A stretch of 64,000 nt of DNA from contig CAIIXF020000003.1 in the NCBI GenBank assembly GCA_903813345.2, forward strand, positions 9,442,218 through 9,506,217, given 5' to 3'. Position 1 is the stretch's first letter, and each line of letters starts with the position of its first letter. Of this stretch, positions 32,701 through 46,577 are shown one piece after another. The notes below the pieces were generated by a model. That model was not told where the DNA came from. It did no database searches and was given only the letters and a program-made list of their open reading frames with translations. The stretch is from Owenia fusiformis. Taxonomy: Eukaryota; Annelida; Polychaeta; Sabellida; Oweniidae. The position numbers and the translations under genes are program-made.

Positions 32701-35700
32701 TTTACACAGTTTACGATTTTAGCTGAAACTTGAGAAGTAGTGGAGAAGTATGTAAATACTATATTACAAGCATGGCACACTGTTTAATGCCATTTTGAAA
32801 AATGGCTGCCATTTTTGCATGTGTTATTACATTGTAACTATACCTCGAAAAGTAGTGGAGCAATTTTGTTTATATTTGATATGTAGTAGGTGCCATTTTT
32901 ATGTGTTTTATTTTATGATTTTTTGCTATAACTAAAAAAGTAGTGCAAGGATTTTGTAAAAATGGCAACCAAGGCTGTTCGATGGGATTTGCTACGCTTT
33001 GGCATTGATGTTATCTAGTTCAAAACCTATATACTGAGACACCATATCCTGTTTATTTTTCTTAATGGCATTTATAATTCAAAATAACAGAATTAAGGGA
33101 ATAACTGAAATTGTACATTTGAAAATTTGAGTTCCAATATTATATTCAGTTGAGAAAAATCTAGACCCCATACTCTAAATTCTTTGAACTTCGTAGAAAT
33201 GACAAGTTATCAAACTGAAAGAAATTGTATATTAAGTGCAAAGGCAAATGTCTATTGAGTCTGAAATTTTTGTTTTCAGCTGAAGAAGAATCGCCAATTA
33301 TACCAGAGGACCCTTCCCAGAATAGAACCCAACTTGGCAGAGATACAAGTTTCCCATCCATTGACACAGAGGGGCGAGTCAATGTCAGGTAAACGAGTCT
33401 ATTTCAAGTGAACAAGTCAATGTCAGGTTAACGAGTCAATGTCATGTGAACAAATCTATGTCAAGTAAACACACCAATGACATGAAAACAAGTCAGTTAA
33501 GCTAAGTTCACACCAAAAGCGCTATCAAAGCGCCGTTGGTGTGGACTTAGCTCTAGTTGAAGAAAAACATAATAATTCGTTGGACATTGTCATTTCAATT
33601 TCTTCAGCTTCACCAAAAGGGGGAGTTACTTCTTTCTTCCAAATGATACTTTCACAACAATATCCATCACCCCCAAATGCAGTCAGATATTCAACAATTT
33701 TTCGGCACCAAATTTTTCAATGCGGACACAGCGCCAAATTATATCGGTTGTGTAATTGATTTGCCCAACAACATTGATGAAAATATCAACTCATTTAAAT
33801 TCAGAAAATCTGTTTAAGGACTTTTAATCACATCAGGTAGCATTTAGTTAAATTGGTAGCTGGACTTTGAAAAGTGTTCCACTTTACAGGTTTTCTGCAT
33901 GTTGATTTTGAAGTAATTTTTTGCAAACTAACAGATATATATTATATTGTACTTTTGTATTATATTGTACTTTTGTATTATATTGTACTTTTGTATTATA
34001 TTGTACTTTTGTATTCCAGTGGAGCGAGCTTCTCTGAGTTCATCCAGGATCAAACAGTGAGAATGTCACCGAGAAAAGGCCCTCGCGAAATGCGGCAACG
34101 TCACAAAAAACATAAAATGACACAACAAAAAGAGGATTTTGCTGCAGGCGTGGAGAGGCTAAGCCAAGAGAACTCCGACAAATCCTACAATCAATCATTT
34201 GGTAAGACTGAGTGTTTTCATTTATTTTTTTAACAACAGGCATTGAAGAAAATAGATACTGCATATTGAAAATATGACTTAAACATCAAGGATTAGGTGT
34301 CCAGGTTCAAATTTCTCAAAGCAAAGTTTTGATAAAAACACCAGGAGACAATCCTATTGCTAGTGTATTTTTTATATAATTTAGCAAAATTCTTGAAAAT
34401 TTTTGGACCACCCTGTATTTCGGATTTTGTATACATGAACTTCTCATATTTCACAGTTGCCTTTTATTCCATACATTTAGTACAAACAATACAACATATT
34501 TCACAGCTGCCTTTCATTTCAAACTCAACTACAAACAACACAACATATTTCACAGCTGCTTTTCATTTCAGACTCAACTACAAACAACACAACATATTTC
34601 ACAGCTGCTTTTCATTTCAGACTCAACTACAAACAACACAACATATTTCACAGCTGCTTTTCATTTCAGACTCAACTACAAACAACACAACATATTTCAC
34701 AGCTGCTTTTCATTTCAGACTCAACTACAATCAACACAACATATTTCACAGCTGCTTTTCATTTCAGACTCAACTACAAACAACACAACATATTTCACAG
34801 CTGCTTTTCATTTCAGACTCAACTACAAACAACACAACATATTTCACAGCTGCTTTTCATTTCAGACTCAACTACAAACAACACAACATATTTCACAGCT
34901 GCTTTTCATTTCAGACTCAACTACAAACAACACAACATATTTCACAGCTGCTTTTCATTTCAGACTCAACTACAAACAACACAACATATTTCACAGCTGC
35001 TTTTCATTTCAGACTCAACTACAAACAACACAACATATTTCACAGCTGCTTTTCATTTCAGACTCAACTACAAACAACACAACATATTTCACAGCTGCTT
35101 TTCATTTCAGACTCAACTACAAACAACACAACATATTTCACAGCTGCTTTTCATTTCAGACTCAACTACAAACAACACAACATATTTCACAGCTGCTTTT
35201 CATTTCAGACTCAACTACAAACAACACAACATATTTCACAGCTGCTTTTCATTTCAGACTCAACTACAAACAACACTGGGGACTTCACCACTGCCTTAGA
35301 GAAAATTATCGAAGAAAATGAAGATGACCCAAGGAAAAGTGTCGGGAGAAATCTTCGGGTTCCAAAAAAGAGAGGCAAAATCAATATCACAAAATTTTCA
35401 CAAGGAGTTCGCACTTTATCGCAACAGGATCCTGATTCAACATGTAAGTTTCCAGATTGAGATTACATGTCCATAGCCAGCTTTTGCCAAGGGGGTTCAC
35501 TTTTCAAGAAGTGCAGGGGGAGTCCTGATTCACATTTGACAACTTTGGCCAAAAATCACCAGACAAGTACTCAGAATTGTCAAAAACTGCATGATTTTTA
35601 AAGAATTTGTGGCCAAGGGGATTCACTCGAACCCTATTACAGTAAAACCTGTCTAGTCTGAACACTACCTGTCTAGTCTGAACACTACCTGTCTAGTCTG

Positions 35701-38700
35701 AACACTACCTGTCTTGTCTGAACACTACCTGTCTAGTCTGAAAACTACCTGTCTAGTCTGAAAACTACCTGTCTAGACTGAACACTACTTGGCTAGACTG
35801 AACACTACCTGCCTAGACTGAACACTACCTGTCTAGACTGAACACTACCTGTCTAGACTGAACACTACCTGTCTAGACTGAAAACTACCTGCCTAGACTG
35901 AACACTGCCTGTCTAGACTGAACATTACCTGTCTAGACTGAACACTACCTGTCTAGACTGAACACTACCTGTCTAGACTGAACACTACTTGTCTAGACTG
36001 AAAACTACCTGCCTAGACTGAACACTGCCTGTCTAGACTGAACATTACCTGTCTAGACTGAACACTACCTGTCTAGACTGAAAACTACCTGTCTAGTCTG
36101 AACACTACCTGTCTAGACTGAACACTACTTGGCTAGACTGAACACTACCTGTCTAGACAGAACACTACCTGGCTAGATTGAACACTACCTGTCTAGTCTG
36201 AACGCTACCTGGCTAGACTGAACACTACCTGTCTAGACTGAACACTACTTGGATGAACCAAAAGTGTTCAGATTACAAGGTGTTCACATTTTAAGGTTAA
36301 AATGGAAGTCTATGGCACATTTAAAAGAATTAATAAATAGGATGAAAAGTGTACACATTGAGAGGTTTTCACATAAGAGAGATATAGGACAAATAAATGT
36401 AACTTTGGAGAAGGTTTAAATGATATATGACGCATATTATGGAGAAATTGGTGTATGTCTACTTAGGGGGTCCTATATTTTCGGGACATCCCGTTGATAT
36501 ACAAATTTACTGTAGGTAACTGCCACCAGATGTTAACATTGTGCCATATTAAAAATGCCTTATTTTCTGTAGTTGAGGACAGTGAGTCTGGGAGTGTATT
36601 CACCAATCAGGAGGAAGATGTAGGGGACAACATCGATACATCAAAGGAAGAAGTTCAACGAAACACATCTGGTGAGTAGAAAATGATTAAACATCATAGA
36701 TTTTTTATATCATGATTTTAAAATGTCACTTATGCCAATTAAAGAAAGGCTATTCCTTGATCTAATTATAGTGTCACCTATATGGTTGGTAGGCAATTGA
36801 AAGGCCTGCGGTGATGGATTTCAATTTTTAAGTACAAAATTGTCTATGTCAAGCCTTGTTTTCTTCGATTTAGTCACTTTTTATGTCCCCACCACATAGT
36901 GTGGGGCCATATTGTCGGCCTAGGCGCGTCCGTCCGTCTGTCTGTCCGTCTGTCTGTCCGTCTGTCTGTCCGTACGTCCGGCAGTTTTCTCCAAAACCGC
37001 TACAGATATCACCTTCAAATTTTCAGGGATAACTTATGAGTGCATACAGATGTGGATGAAAAAAAATTAAATCGATACCTACTTCCTGTCGGCCATTTTG
37101 AAGTCAAATGCTAAAATCCTTGTTAACCCTTTTGGTTCATGAAAAACAGTACTTACCTCTTTTATGTCCTTGGTTATTAGAATAGGTGCAAAGGTTTACA
37201 TAGTGGTATGGGGTATATTCAAATCATAAATACTTTATGATATATATTTTTCTATGTTTTAATTATATTGACAATATTTTTACATGTACATTACAGGTAG
37301 TGAAATGGAAGAATCTGATAATATAAGTATAGCCCGAAACAGAGAAAGTCGACGCTCTCATGACAGATTGTCAAAACGTGACAGTGCAGGAATGCGTGAC
37401 AGTGTAGGGAGACGTGACAGTGTAGGGAGACGTGACAGCTTAAGAAAACAAGACACTTTAATTGAACCCGAAAATGAAAATGAAAATAATGATAAACAAG
37501 TTGAGGAAGATGATAACATAGCCGAGGAAGATGACAACAGATTTGAGGAAGATGATCAAGAAGTCAAGGAAGACGAAAATGAAAATATAAGTGATGAAGA
37601 TGAGAATCAAATTGAAAGAAGGGATTTGGAAAATGACAGTACTGAAAACAGATATGTTGATGAGGAAGATATTGATGACAATATTGAAAATAAAGATGAC
37701 AATATTGAAAATGTATCTGAGGATGTAGAAAATTATTATGAAAATGTTGAAAATGAAGATGACGATGTTGAGAATGAGGTTGACAATGTTGAAAATGAAG
37801 AAGACGAGGCTGAAAATGAGGATGACAATGCTGTAATTGAGGATGACAATGTTGAAGGTGATGATGACAATGCTGAACATGATGATGAAAATGTTGCAAA
37901 TGATGCTGATGAAGAAATGGAAAATGAACCAGCTGAAGAGGGTGACGAAATTGGAGAAGACAATGATGAGAATCTAGAAGAGGAAGCAGATGTCATGGAA
38001 CGAACAAGGTATTTCATTTTTTTGCTAGAATCAGAGAAATAAAGGTTGATAAAATTGCAACAACGTAATTATATTTCAACCAATGTTTCCTTTACTATGG
38101 TGAATGTATCAGAGATTGGCAATGCAGAACTCTTCTTATAATATTGAAAATAAACATCAATTAATGTTTTGATAATTCAGCTAAATAACATAAGATTCTA
38201 CAAAGGCAGCAATGCTATATACTAATCACTTTATTCACAATACAGTACTTACAGTTTGAATTCTGATTTTCTTTGTTTTAAATGTTGCCATTTTGCATTT
38301 TTATCACTCAAAGCCGCTCATAAATATATTTTCAGACATCGAGACCCGCTTGATTTTGCGACACCTGGTACTATAAGACCCTTGCGCCCTCTTGCAAGAA
38401 CTCCTTCTAAAGTGCGACAAGAGAGGTATGCTACAACAGTTTATAATTAGTAATATGTATTTTTTTATTTTCTTCATGTAGTCATAGTTCAACTTGCCAA
38501 AAGGTGGGATTCGATTAAAGGGTGACGCATATCGTTTAGCAAATCGAACGCTCGTTTCTGGTGTTGCTCACCGTTTAGTATAAAAGGCCCGATCCCGGAA
38601 TAATAATAAATAATCGTACTCAAGGGTTCACAGGTTCGAGGTCGTTGTGTCAACACCTCTAACTGTTATATAGCATAAGTATATTATAGATCGTCACACA

Positions 38701-41700
38701 TTTATAAAAGGGTGATTTTTATTTTGACAAATCAATTCCACATTTATGGGTGAAGTTTCAGGATCTTCTATTTGTGTATAATAAGGAAAAATTGGCATCT
38801 AAATTTCCCCATAACGTAATAGCACACAGCTTGGCATATGAAATATCCTACAAATGAAACAAAGCAAGACAAACCGATTTCTAATACAAGAATTTATATT
38901 GGCTGTTGTGCATGTATTATTTGAACGCAATCACTCTTTGAATAACGTTTTCAAAATCATTATAAACGGATTACTTTATCTCAAAGACAATTTCAATAAA
39001 CTGGATTTTACAGAACTCCCCTTATTTCTTAAAAATGGACTGATCCAGTTGATTCGCCTGGAGCCGCCATATTGTTTTTATACGGGATGCTAATCGGAAC
39101 CCTTTAATTGAATGCAGTTTTTGAATTTTCACCAGGATGCTGTACATTCCTGTCCACTATTGCACTCAGCTTAAGATTTTAAAGTAGTGCTGCACTCCTT
39201 ATTTTCACATTCAGTGTTAAATAGTTATTCAAAATTTGAAAGATAGGCATCTACTTTTGATCTGTTTTAATCCTTAAAATCAGATTGAAATAAATAACTT
39301 TTTTGAGGAAAATTTATGATATTAATTAGTCATGTTTGGAAAATATTGCGATTTGCAAAAAATGCATAATTTATTTTATTTTTTTTAGTGCCACACCAGG
39401 GAAAAGTATAGTTCAACTCTCCAATGCCCAGAAGGCTAGACAGGCGCGGAAACCTCGGGCATCAAAGGGAAAATTGCCGCCACATTTACCGAGAAGCCTC
39501 ATAAAAGATCTTGCTAAACATTTCAGCCAGGGTATGATGGTATCCAAGGATGCAATAGCAGCGATTGAAGATGTGTAAGTGCACATATTTTTAGTATATG
39601 AAAATCACATTATTTTGAAAATGAGCGACCGTCCATTCAATTTCCCAAATATTATCTTTTCCTTTTTTTATGTTATTTTCTAAAATTAATTAATTGCAAA
39701 ATCTATACAATGAACATCCAAAATTACAATAATTGAAATAAGTGTTTTTTTTGGCCTTTTATGCAATTTAAGATGCTTGTGTTTGGTTTAGATATGTGAG
39801 CAGGGGTAGGGGTGAATTATGCAAAATTTTCCTGTATTCCAAGAATTACATAAACTGAGAGGATTCACAATGACATACATCCAAACCTATTTTAATACAG
39901 GGTGGCCAAAGAGTAGATTTACAATTGTTCAACAATCTTTAAACTGTTACTGTAAACCTACTTTTTGAACACTCAGTATCATGACTTAAATGGTTAATTA
40001 ATTCCCAATTATACAAAAATTGGCATCTTATGAATTTGTTAATCATTCGAGATTAGTTTGATATTTATCTATTTTAGATCGGCTAAATATTGGAAAAACT
40101 TGGCGGAGGATTTGGGTGCTTATAGTGAGCATCGCACAAGGAGTAGATCAGGTTCTATTACTATGAAAGATGTAATCTTGCTCATGAAGAGGTAAGAAGA
40201 GTTCTACTTAAGTATTTATTCATATGATTTTAAAGTTCAAGAACATGGTTTTACAATAATTGATTTTAGGGGTTATTTGCTTATTTCATTGTTTGGAGGT
40301 TATGAGCTTTAAGACTTTTCGAAGAAACTCACAATTACACTTTTAAAACATGTTGAAAAATCAAAATGGGAGACCTAGTGTCATTACTTAGTGTACACCC
40401 TGTATTCAGGAACATTTACACAAAATTTATGATATCTGTTGTATAATATTCAATTGAACATATGCAAATACATATTATATAAAAAAAATCATTGTTACAT
40501 GTACATATAACTATTAGAAATAATAACAAATAATACCTTAAAAAGACAATGTCCAGGGCTCTCGCCAGGCTTTTAGACTGTGGCGCAGCACCACACTCTA
40601 TTTAGCTCCCTCCACACCCTATTGGCAAATCATGACTGTTTCCACAGTCTAAACTTGACTGAATATACAATAATAGCATGTAAAAAGGATAAAACATAAC
40701 ATAAATATGATTTATCACGATTGAACGATTATTCTGAAGATGTCAGCACCACACCCTAAATATTTCCTGGTGAGAGCCCTGATGTCATTCAAATCATGTT
40801 GACTTTATGTAACGAATCACAAATCTCCCCCTAGGATTTCCTGAAAAAGTGCTTATTTGTGATTGCAATTGTATAAATCTACATAAACTGAGTGAAATTC
40901 ACTTCCTAAGTCTTAAAGAAAATCTTGAAGTACATACAACAGGGTCCATCACATTTCTTGAGTGAAGTACAAGTTATATATTTAAACATCATGTGGTATA
41001 TGTGCTTGTAATGTTAGTACTCTGTCTTGTTCATCTTTTATGAACTCAGTAATATGCTCATGAATCCATTTTAGTCCGACCTGGTTGTAACCTGGTTATA
41101 TTATGGTAGATGGCATTTGTGTTAGAAGGCATAAATGGGAGTTGCTAGAAGGCACTTGTGGGAGATGCTAGAAGGCATTTATGGGAGATGCTAGAAGGCA
41201 TTTATGGGAGATGCTAGAAGGCATTTATGGGAGATGCTAGAAGGAATTAATGGGAGATGCTAGAAGGCATTTATGGGAGATGCTAGAAGGAATTTATGGG
41301 AGATGCTAGAAGGCATTTATGGGAGATGCTAGAAGGCATTTATGGGAGATGCTAGAAGGCATTTATGGGAGATGCTAGAAGGAATTTATGGGAGATGCTA
41401 GAAGGAATTTATGGGAGATGCTAGAAGGCATTTATGGGAGATGCTAGAAGGCATTTTTGGGAGATGCTAGAAGGCATTTATGGGAGATGCTAGAAGGCAT
41501 TTATGGGAGATGCTAGAAGGCATTTATGGGAGATGCTAGAAGGCATTTATGGGAGATGCTAGAAGGCATTTATGGGAGATGCTAGAAGGAATTTATGGGA
41601 GATGCTAGAAGGCATTTATGGGAGATGCTAGAAGGAATTTATGGGAGATGCTAGAAGGCATTTATGGGAGATGCTAGAAGGAATTTATGGGAGATGCTAG

Positions 41701-44700
41701 AAGGCATTTATGGGAGATGCTAGAAGGAATTTATGGGAGATGCTAGAAGGCATTTATGGGAGATGCTAGAAGGCATTTATGGGAGATGCTAGAAGGCATT
41801 TATGGGAGATGCTAGAAGGCATTTATGGGAGATGCTAGAAGGCATTTATGGGAGATGCTAGAAGGCATTTATGGGAGATGCTAGAAGGCATTTATGGGAG
41901 ATGCTAGAAGGCATTTATGGGAGATGCTAGAAGGCATTTATGGGAGATGCTAGAAGGCATTTATGGGAGATGCTAGAAGGCATTTATGGGAGATGCTAGA
42001 AGGCATTTATGGGAGATGCTAGAAGGAATTTATGGGAGATGCTAGAAGGCATTTATGGGAGATGCTAGAAGGCATTTATGGGAGATGCTAGAAGGAATTT
42101 ATGGGAGATGCTAGAAGGCATTTATGGGAGATGCTAGAAGGCATTTATGGGAGATGCTAGAAGGCATTTTTGGGAGATGCTAGAAGGCATTTATGGGAGA
42201 TGCTAGAAGGCATTTATGGGAGATGGTGTTTACACTTTGTCCATTACACTTTGTTCAAAAATGGTAATAACAGGAATAATGTCAACACCAGAAGTGGTGA
42301 CTTATTGTTATAGTCTCCAAGATTTTTGTGGATGGTGTTCATGTTCATTTTTGTCATGTTAATGCCTTGTTTTTTATATTTTTAAACACCTTTGACATAT
42401 TGACTCGGGCCCTTATTGATTTTATAGATGCTTTTGAAACCCACATCCATTTATAGATGGCAGTTCATGCCATGTTAAAACAATTCACAATTCAAAAAAA
42501 TATGTGTGACTCATGAAAGGAACAAAGTCATGGTAACATTAAGAGTATTTCCAATACTAATCAGTGAATTCATGAATATCCCAGAAGAAGACTTCTGAGA
42601 AGTAGTATGAAGAGACTTCCAAGAAGTTGCAGAAATCAATAACCTAGTCCAGATAAGCGCCAGCAATCAGCAGACATTTAGATAGCATTTTGAACGTTTT
42701 GCTAGAACTTGGGAACTACGAGAAGAAGCTAAGATTTCTAAAGAACATTTAACCTTGCATTGAAGACTATAGATACTTATTTTGAATTTTAAACTTTGCC
42801 TATTGAAAAATAAGGAAAGGAGAAGCAACTAAAACATGGAAAATACAAACATCTCTGATGAACAGGAGAAGCAACTAACTACCTGCACTGAGCAAATACA
42901 GAGAGTCATAAAACTCAACTATGATGCAGAGCGCATCAAGGAACAGAGCGACTTCATAGAAAACATCGTTGATGTTGTCACAACAAGAGTCGGTCTCTTG
43001 TACCCAGTTTATAAAACGCATCCAAAGTTACGAAATGGAAGCTTCTACCAGGGAACAAAAATTTTACAAGCCAGTGAGTTTGATTTCTTGAACCCTTTGG
43101 TTTTTTCTGATAACAATGGAATAAAGATCGAAAACTATAGGAAGGTTTACATGAGTGATGAAATAAAAGAAATTCTGTCAGAACCAAAGAAAGAATATGA
43201 GTTGGCTCCATTTCCTGATGCCGAACATTCAAGAAATCTGCTGTGTCCATTTGACAGCATCACATCACCCATTCATAAGGCTGTCCGTCGAGCTTTGAAA
43301 AAGTTACATAGCGAGGGTCAGCTTAAATACATGGGTCAATGCAACCTGAAACGTTACAGTCGGGAGGTTGTCGAAGAAGGAAAGGTTGATCTAGAAAAGT
43401 TAAAACAAAGTGAGATTATGTTGGATGAAAACAGATTTGGTCCTTGTATAACTCTTGCTGTTGGTGGGCCACTCTGTGTCTCACATGTAGACTTGACATT
43501 CTGTCTTAAAGACCACAAAGGCCAAAATGAAGTTAACAACATGGATGAAAAGCTGTTTGTGTTACCCAGAAACAGAGTTTGGATATTGACGAAGTATACA
43601 CCTGGTCATTATGAACTTGATGAACACCATAGAAAGATTTTGATGATTCTGAAATATTGTTTACTCGAAAGCAAACGATATGTGCATGATACAAAATACG
43701 ATTCTCATCTCCTAAAAATGATCGTGAACCACCACCAAGAGTCATGTGACAAAAAATCATCACTCGGAAAATGTTTCTATGATGTAACCCAACAATTGTT
43801 CCAGCTCGGGATCGATAAAGACAAATCAGATGATAATCTACATCTCTCCCCCACATGGTTGGAAAATCTCAGAAACGTTGGATACCCACCAGTTACATTA
43901 CTGGAAAAAAACAACAATGTAGACACTGGAGATATGATCTTTACGTTGGTTCTCTACATTTTAGTTCATTTTATGAAATCTTCCCATGATGCAAGATTCA
44001 TGCTGAGTACCCGTGAAGTTCTATCAGTATGTCTCCAGTTGATATCGAAATATTCTATGAAAGAGTTGGTGACCAATGTTGGATCTTTGAGAGAATTGAC
44101 ACTAAAAAAGGATGTAAAAGTTGAAAACATTGAAAGTTTTATCACAGAGTTGAGTGGTCTGAGATACAAAGGAGGAGAGATCAACATTTTGTTATCTGCT
44201 CTTCCATTTCCTTATCCCCCATATTGGCCCGACTCGTGCAAACCAATCAAAATCACTCAAGATGGAACAATAGAGATAATACATCATACGGACAAAAACT
44301 GGACAAAATGGAAAGAAATTATCGACTCCAATCGCTTGGAAGCTCAGCGAGAAAACCAACAGCATGTTCTGTCACTACAGAGGGAGCTGTGTTCAATTGG
44401 ACGACCCAATGAAATTGACCATCTAAAATTAACACCCGAGGAGTTCAGACAACAGCAAATACAATTTGCAGAGGACATCAAGCACCATGCAAATAAACGT
44501 TTAGATCTTAATAAGCAAGCAGATATAACACGTAAAGAGTCGGAAGATAAGAAAACCGGAGATAAGACGTCAGGGAAGCAGATGTCTCAAGATAACTGAA
44601 GTCCAGTATGTTAAAATTTTAGGGCAATAATAATCATTCACTTTTTGGCTTCTATGATCTTTCTGTTTAGAAGATTAAAGTTGTTTTAGATATTAAATAG

Positions 44701-46577
44701 TGTAATCCTTTCTTTCTGTAATTATCAGAGTCAAAACTTGAAAAAAGTCCCCATGAACAATATTAATTAACTACTTTTTTTTTTAAATTGAAAAAGGTAA
44801 AAATAGTAAAATCTCCTTTGGCCAAAATCATATAGACCTTCAGAATAAACCCATTTCAAACCATTCCAGTAACATACTGTATAAGTGGTATTTAATCCGA
44901 GTGGTTAATTTTCCGAATGGTCAAATTTCATCATTTTCCTAATTTTAATTTTCCTAATGACAAGAAACCTCCCATTGGATAACATTATCAAGACAATATT
45001 TCCGACATTTAATTTTCCGAACCTGGCAAAAATTAGGAAATAGGCAAATTAAATGATTAGGCAAAATTACCACTTATACAGTATACACCCTATACAGACT
45101 GTGCTATATGGTAACAAGTGGTGCGAATATCATGTGCGCAAGGTTTGGATATTAACGGTCGTCTTTGAATTTGAATTTGGGATATTTCATAAACTTAGGC
45201 ATGTTGGGATATTTCATAAACAAAGACATGTTGGGATATTTCATAAACTAAGGCATGTGGGGATATTTCATAAACTAAGGCATGTTGGGATATTTCATAA
45301 ACTAAGGCATGTGAGGATATTTCATAAACTAAGGCATGTTGGGATATTTCATAAACTAAGGCATGTTGGGATATTTCATAAACTAAGGCATGTTAGGATA
45401 TTTCATAAACTAAGGCATGTTGGGATATTTCATAAATTAAGGCATGTTGGGATATTTCATAAACTAAGGCATGTTGGGATATTTCATAAACTAAGGCATG
45501 TTGGGATATTTCATAAACTAAGGCATGTTGAGATATTTCATAAACTAAGGCATGTTAGGATATTTCATAAACTAAGGCATGTTGGGATATTTCATAAACT
45601 AAGGCATGTTGGGATATTTCATAAACTAAGGCATGTTGGGATATTTCATAAACTAAGGCATGTGGGGATATTTCATAAACTAAGGCATGTTGGTATATTT
45701 CATAAACAAAAACATGTTGGGATATTTCATAAACTAGGGCATGTTAGGATATTTCATAAACTAAGGCATGTTGGTATATTTCATAAACAAAAACATGTTG
45801 GGATATTTCATAAACTAAGGCATGTGGGGATATTTCATAAACAAAAACATGTTGGGATATTTCATAAACTAAGGCATGTGGGGATATTTCATAAACTAAG
45901 GCATGTTGGTATATTTCATAAACAAAAACATGTTGGGATATTTCATAAACTAAGGCATGTGGGGATATTTCATAAACTAAGGCATGTTGGTATATTTCAT
46001 AAACTTAGGCATGTTGGGATATTTCATAAACAAAAACATGTTGGGATATTTCATAAACTAAGGCATGTTGGGTACTCAATTATAGTAATCCATTTGTAAA
46101 GGATACCTGAGTGATATAGGCTACCTTTAAAAATTTCAAATAGCACAATTATTATCACATTTGAAAAAAGTGCTATTGTTATCGTCTTGTGCTGCTGATC
46201 AGGCAGGTTTGGTGGGTACCACCTAAATCTTGTAATCAAAATTCCAGGAATATTGTTTATCAGTTCAACTTGAAATTTTTTCGGATGCAAGATCCCAAGT
46301 ACCAAGATCTGACGAGGTTTTCAGGTTTTGGGTATGCTGGGTAAATTATGTGGCACATTATGGCAGCTATTAAGCCCTGCTCTTCAAAGTGTGATTTAAC
46401 ACTGTGTGTTTGTTTTATTCTTTCAGGCAAGGCTTCATTACAGAGAATAAATCACTCCACTCTCTGATTGAAGAACATTTGTCGATGGAATACAGAGAAC
46501 TCCTCATCCCATGTGCACGCTCGGGAAATAAAGTAGTTCCTAAAATGAAAATCCAGAAGTATAAAGGGCACAGATAG
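17604..46577 (+). CDS. CENPT: Centromere protein T (CENP-T), 11 coding exons, 747 aa
   Basis: CENP-T is a DNA-bound inner-kinetochore protein. Its C-terminal histone fold pairs with CENP-W, and its N-terminal tail recruits the Ndc80 complex. Coding exons: 17604-17792, 18553-18778, 33280-33388, 34020-34201, 35258-35443, 36573-36671, 37297-38008, 38336-38425, 39389-39574, 40078-40191, 46427-46577. All introns are GT-AG, all phases join and the sum is 748 codons. Residues about 58-73 (DTPRSQINALLKNM) and 126-138 (TPRTAIRGLIGT) resemble the two CDK-phosphorylated Ndc80-binding motifs of vertebrate CENP-T. Residues about 380-560 are strongly acidic. Residues about 620-698 form the histone fold, and the tail EYRELLIPCARSGNKV is nearly diagnostic for the family. 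The protein is longer than human CENP-T (561 aa), mainly through exon 7. Introns 2 and 10 each hold another gene. Identification is from remembered family sequence, not a search. Confidence 0.93.
17979..18438. mobile_element. Foldback element filling most of CENP-T intron 1
   Basis: The left arm (about 17979-18067) and right arm (about 18350-18438) are reverse complements with mismatches. Examples are CCTACTACCTCATACCCACC against GGTGGGTATGAGGTAGGAGG, and GAAGGGTTCAATTTTAAAG against CTTTAAAATTGAACCCTTC. It occupies about 460 of the 760 intron bases, so the pre-mRNA can form a long hairpin between exons 1 and 2. Confidence 0.85.
18553..18778 (+). CDS. CENPT: CENP-T exon 2
   Basis: Acceptor TTTTTTAG|ATCAAT and donor GGAACAG|GTAGGA (ends in phase 1). 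It continues the first motif (INALLKNMDT) and carries the second (KITPRTAIRGLIGT), with several S/T-P sites between them, as expected of the unstructured Ndc80-recruiting tail. Confidence 0.85.
18893..19615 (-). repeat. GGCGGCC-family repeat copy in CENP-T intron 2 (inverted)
   Basis: The left edge (GGGATATAGTGATAGGGAACGCC, shortened here to its clear core GGGAACGCCTCC) and the right edge (GATGGGATTTGCCACGCTTT) are the reverse complements of the right and left edges of the copy at 24252-25580. Internal blocks such as TTGTTCATATTTGAT and AAAATGG[CT][GC]GCCAT repeat as in that copy. The two lie in opposite orientation within one intron. Confidence 0.75.
19616..20609. other. No gene; probable 3' flank of the receptor-like gene
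   Basis: AT-rich DNA downstream of the - strand gene at 20610-22106. TTTATT at 20251-20256 reads AATAAA on the - strand and could be its poly(A) signal. A 15-base A run lies near 20383-20397. Confidence 0.4.
20610..22106 (-). CDS. Divergent seven-helix (GPCR-like) membrane protein, intronless, 498 aa
   Basis: Seven hydrophobic segments can be read at about residues 42-66, 78-103, 115-138, 149-170, 178-200, 420-443 and 449-472. A basic amphipathic stretch follows (SRSLRHEFIKFYLR), like helix 8 of class A receptors. N17 (NVT) is a possible glycosylation site in the short N-terminus. After helix 3, the sequence RMVKVTQPYRR stands where class A receptors have DRY; no NPxxY is visible in helix 7. 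The third cytoplasmic loop is very long (about 201-418), polar, and contains a 22-residue unit three times (238-303; MHGRQ[TA]QPNV). The start AAAATGATTG gives a sensible N-terminus, and CCAAT and CRE-like sites lie just upstream. The gene is antisense inside CENP-T intron 2. Ligand and subfamily are unknown. It could be an orphan class A-like receptor or another 7-helix protein. Confidence 0.75.
   Translation of the reverse strand: MIEESFADTALPTVEDNVTVVNYKQMLDDRSDKYGCRHYNRIASAAVITFCCVAMYIQINWLFLSFKGKRLHIRENTFHFIQVFVHICGILKELIIGILVALDFNECNLPGVFTWRKYLPMCRLSMKFLCLIGIVRMVKVTQPYRRIPWWIICVMSVIVCLYSAILIIIPDHNDLIWVDNVADICCFGLTVIVHSKMVWSLREKIFTVHIQPNVKSRQHQSSVQTPVDVFQVHKPENMHGRQTQPNVIDDTIKIDKLENMHGRQAQPNVKDDTFKIGKIDNTNAHQTESNVQDDTQTHIVDAFQIHIDFDELENNEESFEEHSNEQPQKQNETISDIRTTFNSFIKVNAKRGMNKTNPKNENNMVKCHKVKNWFKNKISPFSPSKDLGESNPDGKHRQNQQKQLSIIHPLQRKDFIWEYKLIATEVFVLLIAALFHMVTQITFRMNDSQLFHLLYSIFVLCLYSIIKCLKFLTSRSLRHEFIKFYLRKSSRVKSVDFY
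22143..22250 (-). promoter_or_regulatory. Probable promoter of the receptor-like gene
   Basis: On the - strand, reading toward the start at 22106, there are two CCAAT boxes (AACCAAT at 22241-22247 and CCAAT at 22209-22213), a CRE-like GGACGTCA (22182-22189) and a TATA-like TTTAAATA (22145-22152). The order and spacing fit a core promoter. No experimental support. Confidence 0.45.
22251..22640. other. No gene recognised
   Basis: Part of CENP-T intron 2; AT-rich, with nothing recognisable. Confidence 0.5.
22641..24025. repeat. G-rich degenerate tandem repeats
   Basis: Blocks such as GAAAATTTTACAATTTTAAG, ATGCTATTTGGTGCTTTCTG, GGGCACTTTCAAAG and GGGTGCCAGAGGGGGAG recur every few hundred bases (near 22885, 23340, 23605 and again at 26140). 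Long G runs are frequent, including 17 G at about 22771-22787. Open frames here are by-products. The block is interrupted at about 24026-26060 and resumes afterwards. Confidence 0.7.
24026..24135. repeat. TCCCGCGAA repeat block, first part
   Basis: Several copies of TCCCGCGAA and TCCCGCAAA within about 100 bases, much more GC-rich than the flanks. The same motif block returns at 25735-26052, so the two appear to bracket the GGCGGCC-family copy. Confidence 0.65.
24252..25580 (+). repeat. GGCGGCC-family repeat copy in CENP-T intron 2, with internal tandem units
   Basis: It starts near AACGCCAAAGCGTAGCGAAT and ends with a GGACGGACGGACG microsatellite (about 25491-25537) and CCCTATATCCCTCCGAACTT. 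A unit of about 150-180 bases is repeated several times: CAAATATGAACAAAATCGCT, CCACTACTTTTCGAGTTA, AATGG[CT]GGCCATTTTTCAAA, then GTCATTAGACAGTGTGCCAT. It is opposite in orientation to the copy at 18893-19615. Confidence 0.8.
25735..26052. repeat. TCCCGCGAA repeat block, second part
   Basis: At least eight copies of [GA]TCCCGC[GA]AA with ATTT or ATCCC linkers, matching 24026-24135. Short open frames on both strands are created by the repeat and are not genes. Confidence 0.7.
26053..26330. repeat. G-rich repeat resumes
   Basis: Contains the same GAAAATTTTACAATTTTAAG and ATGCTATTTGGTGCTTTCTG blocks as 22641-24025, then A- and T-homopolymer stretches and GGGGGGGTGACAAAGGGGGG. This supports a later insertion having split one G-rich tract. 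Confidence 0.65.
26331..28340. other. No gene recognised (CENP-T intron 2)
   Basis: Ordinary AT-rich intronic DNA. Open frames are short and domain-free, and no repeat structure was noticed. Confidence 0.5.
28350..28995. repeat. Diverged duplication of about 375 bp, rich in GTTCG words
   Basis: Sequence near 28502-28607 (GTTCGTAAATAGA, GAACGCAGTGGCAACTTGTT, GGTTTGATAG) recurs in altered form near 28878-28990 (GTTTGTAAATAGA, GAATGCAGTGAGAACTAGTT, GGTGTGATAG). Both copies are dotted with CG-containing GTTCG/CGTTC words that are scarce elsewhere in the window. It is probably an old repeat; family unknown. Confidence 0.5.
29350..29515. repeat. GGCGGCC-family copy, first part (interrupted)
   Basis: It resembles the start of the copy at 18893 (a short CCGCCCGTCC, then ATTCAAATAAC, CATTTTGT-like words, AGAAGTTCTGCTGAAAAGCT, CAAAATGGCCATTTTAGTGC). 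It breaks off near 29515. The continuation (GTTTTAAATGTAAAAAA onward) is found at about 32615. Confidence 0.5.
29757..30990. repeat. TACTC/CTGCTC pyrimidine-rich minisatellite with a 196-bp-offset duplication
   Basis: The + strand is almost entirely variants of CTGCTCTGCTTACTCTTTAC and CCTATCTGCCCTGCTTACTC. The last part holds a direct duplication of about 120 bases: TGGTCCAGGTTACTCTCC begins at 30675 and again at 30871, and both copies run to AAGGAGTAAACGTGA. Overlapping open frames up to 285 codons are low-complexity by-products. Confidence 0.85.
31000..31075. repeat. 33-bp direct repeat, two copies
   Basis: ACACGTGGACCGGAAGTCAT followed by CCAAGATGGCGG occurs twice in tandem. Each copy contains an E-box (CACGTG), an ETS-like core (CCGGAAGT) and a YY1-like word (AAGATGGCGG). 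Confidence 0.8.
31911..32640. repeat. Direct repeats of about 150-200 bp
   Basis: The block starting AATATAAACAAATAAACCAG at about 31955 recurs almost identically at about 32436, including CATTACATAATATTACATAA words and ACAACACCTTCCA. AAAACAGTAAGAGCAAT also occurs at 31919 and 32608, once before the first copy and once after the second. This is compatible with an insertion bounded by long direct repeats, or a duplication. Confidence 0.75.
32610..33010. repeat. GGCGGCC-family copy, second part
   Basis: It resumes the family sequence lost at 29515: GTTTTAAATGTAAAAA, CACATGGCAGCCATTTTGAA, GAAAAGTAGTGGAGCAATTT, and the right edge GATGGGATTTGCTACGCTTT, matching the copy at 18893-19615. About 3.1 kb separates the two parts. 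Confidence 0.6.
33280..33388 (+). CDS. CENPT: CENP-T exon 3
   Basis: Acceptor TTTTGTTTTCAG|CTGAAG and donor AATGTCAG|GTAAAC. It enters in phase 1 and leaves in phase 2, encoding a mixed acidic linker (AEEESPIIPEDPSQN...). The donor lies in the first unit of a 19-bp tandem array that continues into the intron. Confidence 0.8.
33376..33489. repeat. 19-bp tandem array spanning the exon 3 donor, six units
   Basis: Units are variants of GAGTCAATGTCAGGTAAAC. Unit 1 straddles the exon 3 / intron 3 junction. Unit 3 (33414-33432) repeats the donor as GTCAG|GTTAAC, and units 4 and 5 carry weaker GT-containing versions. Reading past the true donor meets TAA immediately. Confidence 0.85.
33945..34013. 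repeat. 18-bp tandem array at the exon 4 acceptor
   Basis: Four units of TTTTGTATTATATTGTAC. The array runs directly into the TTTTGTATTCCAG acceptor of exon 4, so the pyrimidine tract is the last, altered unit. Confidence 0.85.
34020..34201 (+). CDS. CENPT: CENP-T exon 4
   Basis: Acceptor TTGTATTCCAG|TGGAGC and donor TCATTTG|GTAAGA. It enters in phase 2 and leaves in phase 1. It encodes a basic, polar linker (SGASFSEFIQDQTVRMSPRK..., then Lys/Arg/Gln-rich). Confidence 0.8.
34446..35276. repeat. 49-bp minisatellite, each unit a 3' splice acceptor
   Basis: A 49-base unit repeats nearly perfectly. Each has CAGCTGCTTTTCATTTCAG followed by ACTCAACTACAAACAACAC. The acceptor G occurs at 34571 and every 49 bases to 35257: 15 intact copies, plus an upstream AA variant and a more degenerate unit. 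The last copy is the acceptor and first 19 bases of CENP-T exon 5. Because 49 mod 3 is 1 and no frame contains a stop, the array is open in all three frames on this strand. Confidence 0.95.
35258..35443 (+). CDS. CENPT: CENP-T exon 5
   Basis: The acceptor TTTTCATTTCAG|ACTCAA is the last member of the 49-bp array; the donor is TCAACAT|GTAAGT. Enters and leaves in phase 1. It encodes DSTTNNTGDFTTALEKIIEE, then a basic stretch (VPKKRGKINITKF). The 5'-most 19 bases derive from the repeat unit. Use of acceptors 3, 6, 9 or 12 units upstream would keep the frame and add 49 residues per three units. Confidence 0.8.
35648..36252. repeat. 20-bp minisatellite, about 30 units, in CENP-T intron 5
   Basis: Units are variants of CTGTCTAGACTGAACACTAC. 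The array is flanked by AGTAAAACCTGTCTAGTCTG on the left and AAAGTGTTCAGATTACAAGG on the right, matching the ends of the element at 48045-48215. It is probably an expanded inner segment of that element. Confidence 0.9.
36573..36671 (+). CDS. CENPT: CENP-T exon 6
   Basis: Acceptor TATTTTCTGTAG|TTGAGG and donor ACATCTG|GTGAGT. Enters and leaves in phase 1. It encodes an acidic linker (FEDSESGSVFTNQEEDVGDN...). Confidence 0.8.
36893..37110. repeat. CCGTCTGTCTGTC-type dispersed repeat fragment
   Basis: Starts with CCACCACATAGTGTGGGGCC, then a [CT]GTCCGTCTGTCTGTC microsatellite (about 36926-36979), then TTTTCTCCAAAACCGCTACA and CACCTTCAAATTTTCAGGGA. This layout is common in marine invertebrate genomes as a dispersed element of DNA-transposon type; the family name is not assigned. 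Confidence 0.55.
37297..38008 (+). CDS. CENPT: CENP-T exon 7, Arg-Asp-Ser repeats and acidic domain
   Basis: Acceptor ACATTACAG|GTAGTG and donor CGAACAAG|GTATTT; enters in phase 1, leaves in phase 2. It encodes about residues 331-568. It first has RDS repeats (RRDSVGRRDSVGRRDSLRK), which fit R-x-S kinase sites such as Aurora-type. Then come about 170 residues dominated by Glu, Asp and Asn in loose NVENEDD-type repeats. It is the largest exon and explains why the protein is longer than vertebrate CENP-T. Antisense open frames here mirror the acidic repeat. Confidence 0.85.
38336..38425 (+). CDS. CENPT: CENP-T exon 8
   Basis: Acceptor ATATATTTTCAG|ACATCG and donor CAAGAGAG|GTATGC; enters and leaves in phase 2. 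It encodes RHRDPLDFATPGTIRPLRPL and ARTPSKVRQE, a basic Pro-rich linker with two T-P sites before the histone fold. Confidence 0.8.
38510..39113. mobile_element. Possible TIR element in CENP-T intron 8
   Basis: ATTCGATTAAAGGGT at 38510 and ACCCTTTAATTGAAT at 39099-39113 are near-perfect inverted ends about 600 bases apart. The interior has no transposase-like frame. A short TIR makes this tentative. Confidence 0.4.
39389..39574 (+). CDS. CENPT: CENP-T exon 9 (first half of histone fold)
   Basis: Acceptor ATTTTTTTTAG|TGCCAC and donor GAAGATGT|GTAAGT; enters and leaves in phase 2. It encodes residues about 598-660, with LPRSLIKDLAKHFSQG and VSKDAIAAIEDV, the first helices of the CENP-T histone fold. 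Confidence 0.9.
40078..40191 (+). CDS. CENPT: CENP-T exon 10 (second half of histone fold)
   Basis: Acceptor ATCTATTTTAG|ATCGGC and donor ATGAAGAG|GTAAGA; enters and leaves in phase 2. It encodes SAKYWKNLAEDLGAYSEHRT and SITMKDVILLMKR. The second part matches the family pattern ED[LV]xLLM[RK]RQG, completed by exon 11. Confidence 0.9.
40554..40781. mobile_element. 228-bp MITE with 5-bp target duplication
   Basis: The ends CAGGGCTCTCGCCAGG and CCTGGTGAGAGCCCTG are inverted repeats. ATGTC flanks both sides (40549-40553 and 40782-40786), a 5-bp target-site duplication. There is no coding capacity. It lies in CENP-T intron 10. CAGGG-type ends are seen in several DNA-transposon superfamilies; none is assigned here. 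Confidence 0.85.
41123..42226. repeat. 23-bp minisatellite, about 48 units, upstream of the cGAS-like gene
   Basis: The unit reads GAAGGCATTTATGGGAGATG plus CTA, with a recurring C-to-A variant (GAAGGAATTTATGGG) scattered through the array. 1104 bases equal 48 units. It ends about 610 bases before the start codon at 42836. Frames are interrupted by TAG and TAT-containing phases, so it is non-coding. Confidence 0.95.
42593..42625. promoter_or_regulatory. Two STAT-type (TTCnnnGAA) palindromes upstream of the cGAS-like gene
   Basis: TTCTGAGAA at 42593-42601 and TTCCAAGAA at 42617-42625 both fit TTCnnnGAA and are 24 bases apart, 210-245 bases before the start codon. The motif is short and could be chance, but a pair is what an immune-induced promoter would show. 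Confidence 0.3.
42836..44599 (+). CDS. cGAS-like receptor / Mab-21-domain nucleotidyltransferase, intronless, 587 aa
   Basis: Members of the cGAS / Mab-21 family bind nucleic acid and, when catalytically intact, make cyclic dinucleotide second messengers for STING-type signalling in the cytosol; other Mab-21 proteins are inactive. The nucleotidyltransferase core shows the G-S motif (NGSFYQGTKI, residues 67-76), the first two metal ligands in EFD (E81, D83) and the third in HVDL (D219), so the triad is intact. The helical half follows, with KILMILKYCLLES and YDSHLLKMIVNHH in the place of the Mab-21 C-terminal helices. The last 80 residues are Lys/Glu/Gln-rich and probably coiled coil. Start context AAACATGG is good; ATTAAA at 44674 and 44692 may be the poly(A) signal. 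The gene lies on the same strand inside CENP-T intron 10, between two minisatellites. Absence of introns could reflect a retrocopy. No clear vertebrate-cGAS zinc ribbon is seen. Product and ligand are unknown. Confidence 0.88.
   Translation: MENTNISDEQEKQLTTCTEQIQRVIKLNYDAERIKEQSDFIENIVDVVTTRVGLLYPVYKTHPKLRNGSFYQGTKILQASEFDFLNPLVFSDNNGIKIENYRKVYMSDEIKEILSEPKKEYELAPFPDAEHSRNLLCPFDSITSPIHKAVRRALKKLHSEGQLKYMGQCNLKRYSREVVEEGKVDLEKLKQSEIMLDENRFGPCITLAVGGPLCVSHVDLTFCLKDHKGQNEVNNMDEKLFVLPRNRVWILTKYTPGHYELDEHHRKILMILKYCLLESKRYVHDTKYDSHLLKMIVNHHQESCDKKSSLGKCFYDVTQQLFQLGIDKDKSDDNLHLSPTWLENLRNVGYPPVTLLEKNNNVDTGDMIFTLVLYILVHFMKSSHDARFMLSTREVLSVCLQLISKYSMKELVTNVGSLRELTLKKDVKVENIESFITELSGLRYKGGEINILLSALPFPYPPYWPDSCKPIKITQDGTIEIIHHTDKNWTKWKEIIDSNRLEAQRENQQHVLSLQRELCSIGRPNEIDHLKLTPEEFRQQQIQFAEDIKHHANKRLDLNKQADITRKESEDKKTGDKTSGKQMSQDN
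44674..44697 (+). terminator. Possible poly(A) signals of the cGAS-like gene
   Basis: Two ATTAAA hexamers (44674-44679 and 44692-44697) lie 75-98 bases after the stop codon, followed by a T-rich stretch. ATTAAA is the commonest variant of AATAAA. Confidence 0.35.
44875..45083. mobile_element. 209-bp MITE with TACTGTATAAGTGGTA ends
   Basis: TACTGTATAAGTGGTA (44875) and TACCACTTATACAGTA (ends 45083) are perfect inverted repeats of 16 bases with TA at both outer edges. The interior repeats TTAATTTTCC and AATTTTCCGAA words. It is non-coding and sits between the cGAS-like gene and the 27-bp array. Confidence 0.85.
45179..46072. repeat. 27-bp minisatellite, about 33 units, downstream of the cGAS-like gene
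   Basis: The unit is GGGATATTTCATAAACTAAG plus GCATGTT, with variants (ACAAAAACATG, TTAGGATA, GGTATA). Because 27 is a multiple of 3, one frame stays open and would read GIFHKLRHV over and over within a 348-codon frame (45053-46099). There is no gene context, and the array lies in CENP-T intron 10, so I treat it as non-coding. Confidence 0.92.
46427..46577 (+). CDS. CENPT: CENP-T exon 11 (terminal exon)
   Basis: Acceptor TTATTCTTTCAG|GCAAGG; entered in phase 2, ends at TAG 46575-46577. It completes RQGFITENKSLHSLIEEHLS and then MEYRELLIPCARSGNKV. This closely follows the vertebrate C-terminal pattern EYR[QE]LLIPCA.SGN.V, plus a short basic tail (MKIQKYKGHR). Confidence 0.93.

Follow-up and report, generated by a model that had tools for sequence, protein, structure and literature searches.

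A 49-bp tandem array that repeats the predicted acceptor of CENP-T exon 5 in the annelid Owenia fusiformis, probably as a passenger minisatellite

The CENP-T gene and its tandem array

The window, a 64,000-nucleotide stretch of the Owenia fusiformis genome, carries on its + strand a gene that, judged by homology, is CENP-T, as the first-pass annotation had proposed. We retain the exon numbers of that annotation; the present mapping begins at 33280. The exon models are based on frame, splice signals and domain homology, the boundary of exon 5 being predicted from genomic signals and not from RNA. Exons 3 (33280-33388), 4 (34020-34201), 5 (35258-35443), 6 (36573-36671), 7 (37297-38008), 8 (38336-38425), 9 (39389-39574) and 10 (40078-40191) have AG and GT ends throughout and share one common frame. 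Exon 4 ends in a gtaaga donor; exon 5, which is 186 nt long and entered in phase 1, ends in gtaagt and is in frame with both of its neighbors. Together with the last exon (46427-46577), which supplies the C-terminus and the stop codon, these nine exons join in frame to encode a complete histone fold (begun in exon 9 and continued in exon 10) and C-terminus. The joined C-terminal domain matches the Pfam family CENP-T_C (PF15511) with 76.9 bits (E 1.6e-21, positions 4-107 of 108), and the runner-up family, CENP-S, reaches 33.3 bits. When the last exon was omitted from the query, chicken CENP-T (3vh5) was matched at E 1e-6, with CENP-S the next molecule at 0.0013. Exons 4-5 returned 0 hits in the PDB, and no Pfam family rose above its cut-off for exons 3-6. 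Because the nine exons join in frame, and exon 4 with its flank has a single match in the assembly, the host gene looks intact.

A last exon at 42.5 kb was also considered and was rejected for the stops in that stretch; 46427-46577 is the better candidate. The last mapped intron (40192-46426) additionally harbors, on the same strand, a 588-codon open frame (42833-44599) that shows a weak match to Mab-21 nucleotidyltransferase (16.7 bits against a cut-off of 24.1) and is flanked by two large arrays (23 bp x 48 and 27 bp x 33). Repeats are found in other parts of the gene as well. A perfect 18-bp x 4.2 array at 33940-34015 occupies the pyrimidine-tract region of the acceptor of exon 4, its end lying 4 bases short of that exon, and intron 5 contains a 20-bp x 30 array at 35647-36248. 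Exon 7, which is acidic, includes in-frame coding repeats (37376-37909) with periods of 18, 21, 63 and 21 bp, all multiples of 3. A search of the assembly with CENP-T_C placed most other matches in regular repeats on C8 and C11, plus a few weak single matches. Histone-fold matches at C8:9817918-9870321 and C11:19691449-19738954, with spacings of about 6.4 kb and 6.76 kb, are probable histone gene clusters.

A tandem array crosses the boundary of intron 4 and exon 5 on the + strand (34445-35276); TRF reports a period of 49, 17.0 copies and 98% matches. Its unit combines the final 30 nt of the intron with the opening 19 nt of exon 5. The sequence CTGCTTTTCATTTCAG is found 15 times in the array, in steps of exactly 49 bp, which puts the possible starts of exon 5 at 34572, 34621 and onward, every 49 bp, to 35258. 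We thus concur with the first-pass annotation that 15 acceptors spaced at 49 bp lead to this exon and that the unit was amplified along with the exon boundary. Two of its statements require trimming. An acceptor was ascribed to each unit, and is intact in 15 of the 17; the two upstream-most units have no CAG at that position. The same 19 exon bases were said to follow every acceptor, and do so exactly in 14 of the 15, the acceptor whose exon would start at 34719 having one A-to-T change.

The two upstream edge units occupy 34445-34543. The first (34445-34494) is strongly diverged, is 50 bp long and has a different AG at 34479-34480; the second (34495-34543) carries 2 substitutions, one of them within the AG. 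The upstream-most intact acceptor lies at 34556-34571, and its use would start the exon at 34572, 14 units early. At the other end, the last unit (35231-35276) is the predicted working acceptor: a TTCAC branch-point-like motif and a pyrimidine tract precede the AG at 35256-35257, after which come the opening 19 bases of exon 5. Thirteen of the 16 in-register units are identical, the exceptions being an edge unit, a unit that carries one substitution, and the last unit, whose sequence departs only where it passes into exon 5. The intron part of the unit is identical across all 15 acceptors. Between 34495 and 35276 there is no GT, such that the array contains acceptors without donors, and no ATG occurs on the + strand of that interval. 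A 39-base unit pattern, allowed up to 3 mismatches, was found 15 times in forward and 0 times in reverse orientation in the 498,259,871-base assembly, always at the CENP-T locus (a reversed-pattern control gave 0 matches); an origin from a dispersed repeat is therefore without support. No haplotype copies of the locus were found among the 40 of 2588 candidates that were scored in the assembly, and 39 other matches cover only a repeat downstream of exon 5. The predicted RNA structure of four units was nothing special (z -1.14).

Splice signals and reading frames of the array

Every intact unit contains TTCAC, which fits the yUnAy consensus, followed by a pyrimidine tract and CAG; 19 intron bases separate the A of TTCAC from the exon. 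In the last unit, this A is at 35238. A second AG, within CACAG and 16 bases further upstream, is present in all 17 units; it sits only a few bases from the branch-point-like A. According to PMC1431707, AGs within about 12-15 nt of the branch point may be skipped; each intact unit is thus, on paper, a complete 3' splice site. In a leave-one-out acceptor matrix built from 7 CENP-T sites, the array acceptor ranks 4th of the 8 acceptors of exons 3-10, and two AGs of intron 4 that lie outside the array (34240 and 34385) score above it. With so few sites behind it and these two AGs ranked higher, the matrix cannot choose between sites.

To reach exon 5, the exon 4 donor has to be joined to some one of 15 acceptors, with different consequences for the protein. 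Five of them, located 0, 3, 6, 9 and 12 units upstream, would add 0, 49, 98, 147 and 196 residues in frame; the remaining 10 shift the frame and run into a stop 125 or 147 nt ahead of the end of exon 5. In this allele, the upstream-most acceptor would add 686 nt, enter frame +2 and meet a premature stop. Only the last acceptor keeps the frame, and hence the same protein, at any copy number. All three frames are free of stops from 34481 to about 35296, a property shared by 2.9% of base shuffles of the unit, 22% of its dinucleotide shuffles and 4.6% of random 49-mers from the window. The openness of all frames is only mildly unusual for a G-poor unit, and we rejected it as evidence of coding because 22% of dinucleotide shuffles are equally open. 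The 258-residue reading that begins 12 units upstream drew 8 Pfam families at E up to 1, with no stretch passing alone; its best whole-protein score (BCL9, 25.4 bits against a cut-off of 25) is a sum of short repeated matches.

Boundary arrays in this genome and in other animals

On four sequence features, the CENP-T array is best read as a “mirage”, the term published for a minisatellite-like duplication of an intron-exon boundary in the lancelet Adh, globin, TnC and PGBD5 genes (PMC3087553, PMC3902484). The array is tandem and minisatellite-like, and its unit holds the boundary of the host's own intron and exon as predicted from frame and splice signals. Further, many of its units, though not all, keep the splice signals. 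Lastly, mirages are described as homogenized in their interiors and not at their edges (PMC3087553), and here the interior is homogenized, the upstream edge has diverged, and the downstream edge is the exon itself, not diverged in the shared part. Length instability, between haplotypes or somatically, and undisturbed splicing count among the further features of mirages.

A boundary-containing tandem unit is common to the CENP-T array and to the lancelet mirages reported for Adh3 (units of 10-72 bp), BflGb6/BflGb9, TnC and PGBD5 (PMC3087553, PMC3902484). In BflGb6, the 3' end of an intron and the start of exon 2 are duplicated in 6 and 3 units, and RT-PCR is reported to suggest regular splicing (PMC3087553). 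That mirage resembles the CENP-T array in its acceptor-side location, in the presence of an AG in many units, and in its homogenized interior and excluded edges; it differs in size, as the CENP-T array has 15 intact acceptors and a 49-bp unit, whereas the BflGb6 unit measures 150-160 bp. The CENP-T array also departs from the lancelet mirages in its host gene and in residing in an annelid genome. According to PMC3902484, Adh and TnC mirages occur without aberrant mRNAs, and PGBD5 repeats without interference with splicing.

Human CBS offers two further comparisons. The polymorphism c.844_845ins68 duplicates an intron/exon junction and, like the CENP-T array, leaves competing sites, of which the more distal is strongly favored (PMC2630376). 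That paper writes “donor” for these sites, whereas the title of the work it cites, Romano et al. 2002, says 3' splice site. The human case involves two copies of a 68-bp unit and has been studied experimentally. Also in CBS, a 31-bp VNTR, described as non-coding, lies at the exon 13/intron 13 boundary, and a higher number of units is associated with lower CBS activity (PMC5188458). It is likewise a tandem repeat at an exon boundary, and is itself variable, but it lies on the donor (exon-to-intron) side.

We also considered two other kinds of element. Intron gain through tandem duplication of AGGT proto-splice sites would require a unit with a donor GT as well as an acceptor AG, and the interval 34495-35276 holds no GT. 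NAGNAG acceptors share one branch point and one pyrimidine tract, while each intact unit here has its own tract and TTCAC. NAGNAG and other tandem acceptors (PMC2875228, PMC1449888) do resemble the array in presenting alternative AGs for one exon, but they are spaced 3 nt apart in the NAGNAG form rather than 49 nt.

We next set the array against the repeat load of the genome, counting as minisatellites those repeats with a period of 12-200 and at least 4 copies. They make up 9.2% of a 120-kb sample of the assembly (12 pieces), although 5 of the pieces have none and one piece accounts for about half of the covered bases. Coverage is about 10% in the window and 28% in the CENP-T span from 33280 to 40191. 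Two of the 16 splice sites of exons 3-10 lie inside arrays, namely the acceptor of exon 5 and the donor of exon 3, a number near the expectation from the coverage of the window and below that from the CENP-T span. The exon 3 donor is contained in a 19-bp x 6.3 array (33377-33495, + strand), which constitutes a diverged, donor-side boundary array of CENP-T. With the boundary marked by a slash, its copies include TCAG/GTAAACG, TCAA/GTGAACA and TCAG/GTTAACG, and a GT stands at the donor position in five copies.

Recurrence was surveyed by eye among the 556 exon matches that 7 Pfam families gave in the assembly (kinesin 136, AAA 21, UCH 51, myosin 85, kinase 139, DEAD 49, Y_phosphatase 75); all candidates were scored for UCH and Y_phosphatase, and a part of them for the other families (for kinase, for instance, 124 of 875). 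Two evenly spaced series of copies stood out, and both are acceptor arrays. The first, at C2:23266359-23269174, belongs to a kinesin gene that we take to be KIF4-like; a 159-bp unit is repeated 17.9 times, with 18 copies of CCATAG/ATTCACTAGG spaced by 159 bp except for one step of 158. The second, at C9:8171898-8173421, is in a UCH-domain gene, presumably USP22-like, and comprises 11.2 copies of a 150-bp unit, with 11 acceptors when small variation is allowed and 8 of the exact form. The kinesin and UCH units share at least 116 and at least 128 nt of exon-side sequence, respectively, up to the fourth mismatch. As in CENP-T, each joins an intron end to an exon start, lies upstream, and has the full exon in its last copy. 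Apart from their longer units, these two arrays differ from that of CENP-T in that the kinesin unit contains a stop and in that one frame stays open over 666 aa of the UCH array. All 17 upstream kinesin acceptors, if read on, reach the same in-unit stop, and the last alone continues into the exon; only the last can thus yield a full-length protein. The kinesin unit does contain GT dinucleotides, 6 in one unit, such that upstream acceptors could in principle be spliced onward rather than read to the stop. A pair of kinase exons (C10:2256896-2257205) was examined as a two-copy case and rejected, being two diverged exons without a tandem array. An irregularly spaced cluster of 12 similar myosin exon matches (C9:37986009-37994334, profile positions within 18-84) looks, by eye, like an alternative-exon cluster.

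Choice among the acceptors

The CENP-T array is probably a boundary-spanning minisatellite, i.e. a mirage, in which exon 4 joins almost exclusively to the last acceptor and the array travels as a nearly neutral passenger. Ordinary tandem-repeat turnover, by slippage or unequal crossing-over, would have amplified and homogenized the unit, rather than selection for the array as such. The donor of exon 4 would join almost only at 35257/35258, because exon 5 is short and would be recognized starting from the donor at its end (35444), which favors the nearest acceptor. Transcripts spliced at the other 14 acceptors would be scarce or would fall to nonsense-mediated decay, leaving the array in intron 4 as a nearly neutral, probably length-variable passenger. 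The upstream stops of the kinesin array, the premature stops at 10 of the 15 CENP-T acceptors, and the fact that the last acceptor alone is safe for the frame lead us to expect that it is the last acceptor that is in use. This was the second of two possibilities raised at first pass, that the spliceosome tolerates the array by always using one end, and it is the alternative that fits best.

The choice of the last acceptor is probably made through exon definition. Measured to the last acceptor, the intron before exon 5 is 1056 nt long, and the one after it has 1129 nt; both exceed the approximately 250 nt beyond which, according to PMC9225289, sites are recognized by exon definition, and the abstract of that paper has exon definition favoring the sites nearest across the exon. 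The kinesin array is an independent argument that splicing in this genome cannot rely mainly on upstream acceptors, provided that the gene is functional and that upstream units are not spliced on within the array. Some considerations count against this explanation. Scanning for AG would favor the first AG after the branch point, and each unit has a branch-point-like motif of its own. Further, PMC9225289 reports an overall preference for the upstream site in the choice between alternative 3' splice sites, which exon definition, for sites of like strength, only lessens. In CBS, elements that the CENP-T array lacks may underlie the preference for the distal site, and, given the weak family matches, a second, diverged CENP-T may exist elsewhere in the assembly.

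How the spliceosome picks one of several equivalent 3' splice sites is a long-standing problem, and to our knowledge most work on it has used two copies. The genome of O. fusiformis presents a natural test with 15 acceptors 49 nt apart in CENP-T and 18 in the kinesin gene. The predicted outcomes differ: always choosing the first would shift the CENP-T frame, a uniform choice would keep it in 5 of 15 cases, and exon definition would give the normal protein. The kind of array is already known; its copy number, its uniformity and its recurrence are notable. If our reading is right, the O. fusiformis arrays are mirages outside the lancelets. They suggest that mirages, as described in PMC3087553 and PMC3902484, are a wider feature of minisatellite-rich genomes, and a route by which introns and the edges of exons are remodeled.

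It is also conceivable, though unlikely, that splicing draws on several or even many of the 15 acceptors, with the 10 out-of-frame products degraded by nonsense-mediated decay, such that the dose of CENP-T falls in proportion to copy number. The acceptors are, after all, identical in the intron part of the unit, and the stops lie far enough from the end of exon 5 for decay. Under the usual rule for this process, 125-147 nt suffices to trigger it. The general preference for upstream 3' splice sites (PMC9225289) would point the same way, as would the reported influence of the number of 31-bp units on CBS activity (PMC5188458). However, the lancelet cases are reported without aberrant mRNA (PMC3087553, PMC3902484), and a uniform choice in the kinesin array would leave only about 1 in 18 messages intact. 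For a kinetochore gene matched at a single locus of the assembly, losing much of the message would come at a high cost. In vertebrates, CENP-T is essential.

We regard as improbable the other possibility raised at first pass, a length-variable cassette in which the acceptors 0, 3, 6, 9 and 12 units upstream produce CENP-T isoforms in 49-residue steps before the histone fold. Its premises survive scrutiny: the frames are open, the arithmetic of the four longer in-frame products is correct, and the other acceptors do shift the frame. Moreover, the insertion point precedes the histone fold, where a change in length could be tolerated. Yet the spliceosome would have to pass over the out-of-frame acceptors although their sequence is the same, 10 of the 15 choices end prematurely, and the 258-residue reading contains no stretch that passes any Pfam family by itself. 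The period of 49 is not a multiple of 3, whereas the periods of the exon 7 coding repeats all are, as is expected if the array is untranslated. The stops in the kinesin array and the lancelet arrays, which reportedly spare splicing, also leave the cassette unsupported. We give equally little credence to the array as a tunable splicing device, in which copy number and acceptor choice together set 49-residue steps in CENP-T or the loss of the message to decay. If that were true, individuals with alleles of different length would have kinetochores that differ in linker length or in dose, and the device would be reused in other genes of this genome.

Lastly, an assembly artefact that inflated the copy number or misplaced the array is very improbable: near-identical tandem repeats are error-prone, and a draft genome is reported to have misassembled one of the published mirages (supplementary legend of PMC3087553), but this array lies in a 34.9-Mb contig next to a single-match exon 4 sequence, one of its internal units is a variant, one of its edges has decayed, and similar arrays stand at two other loci.
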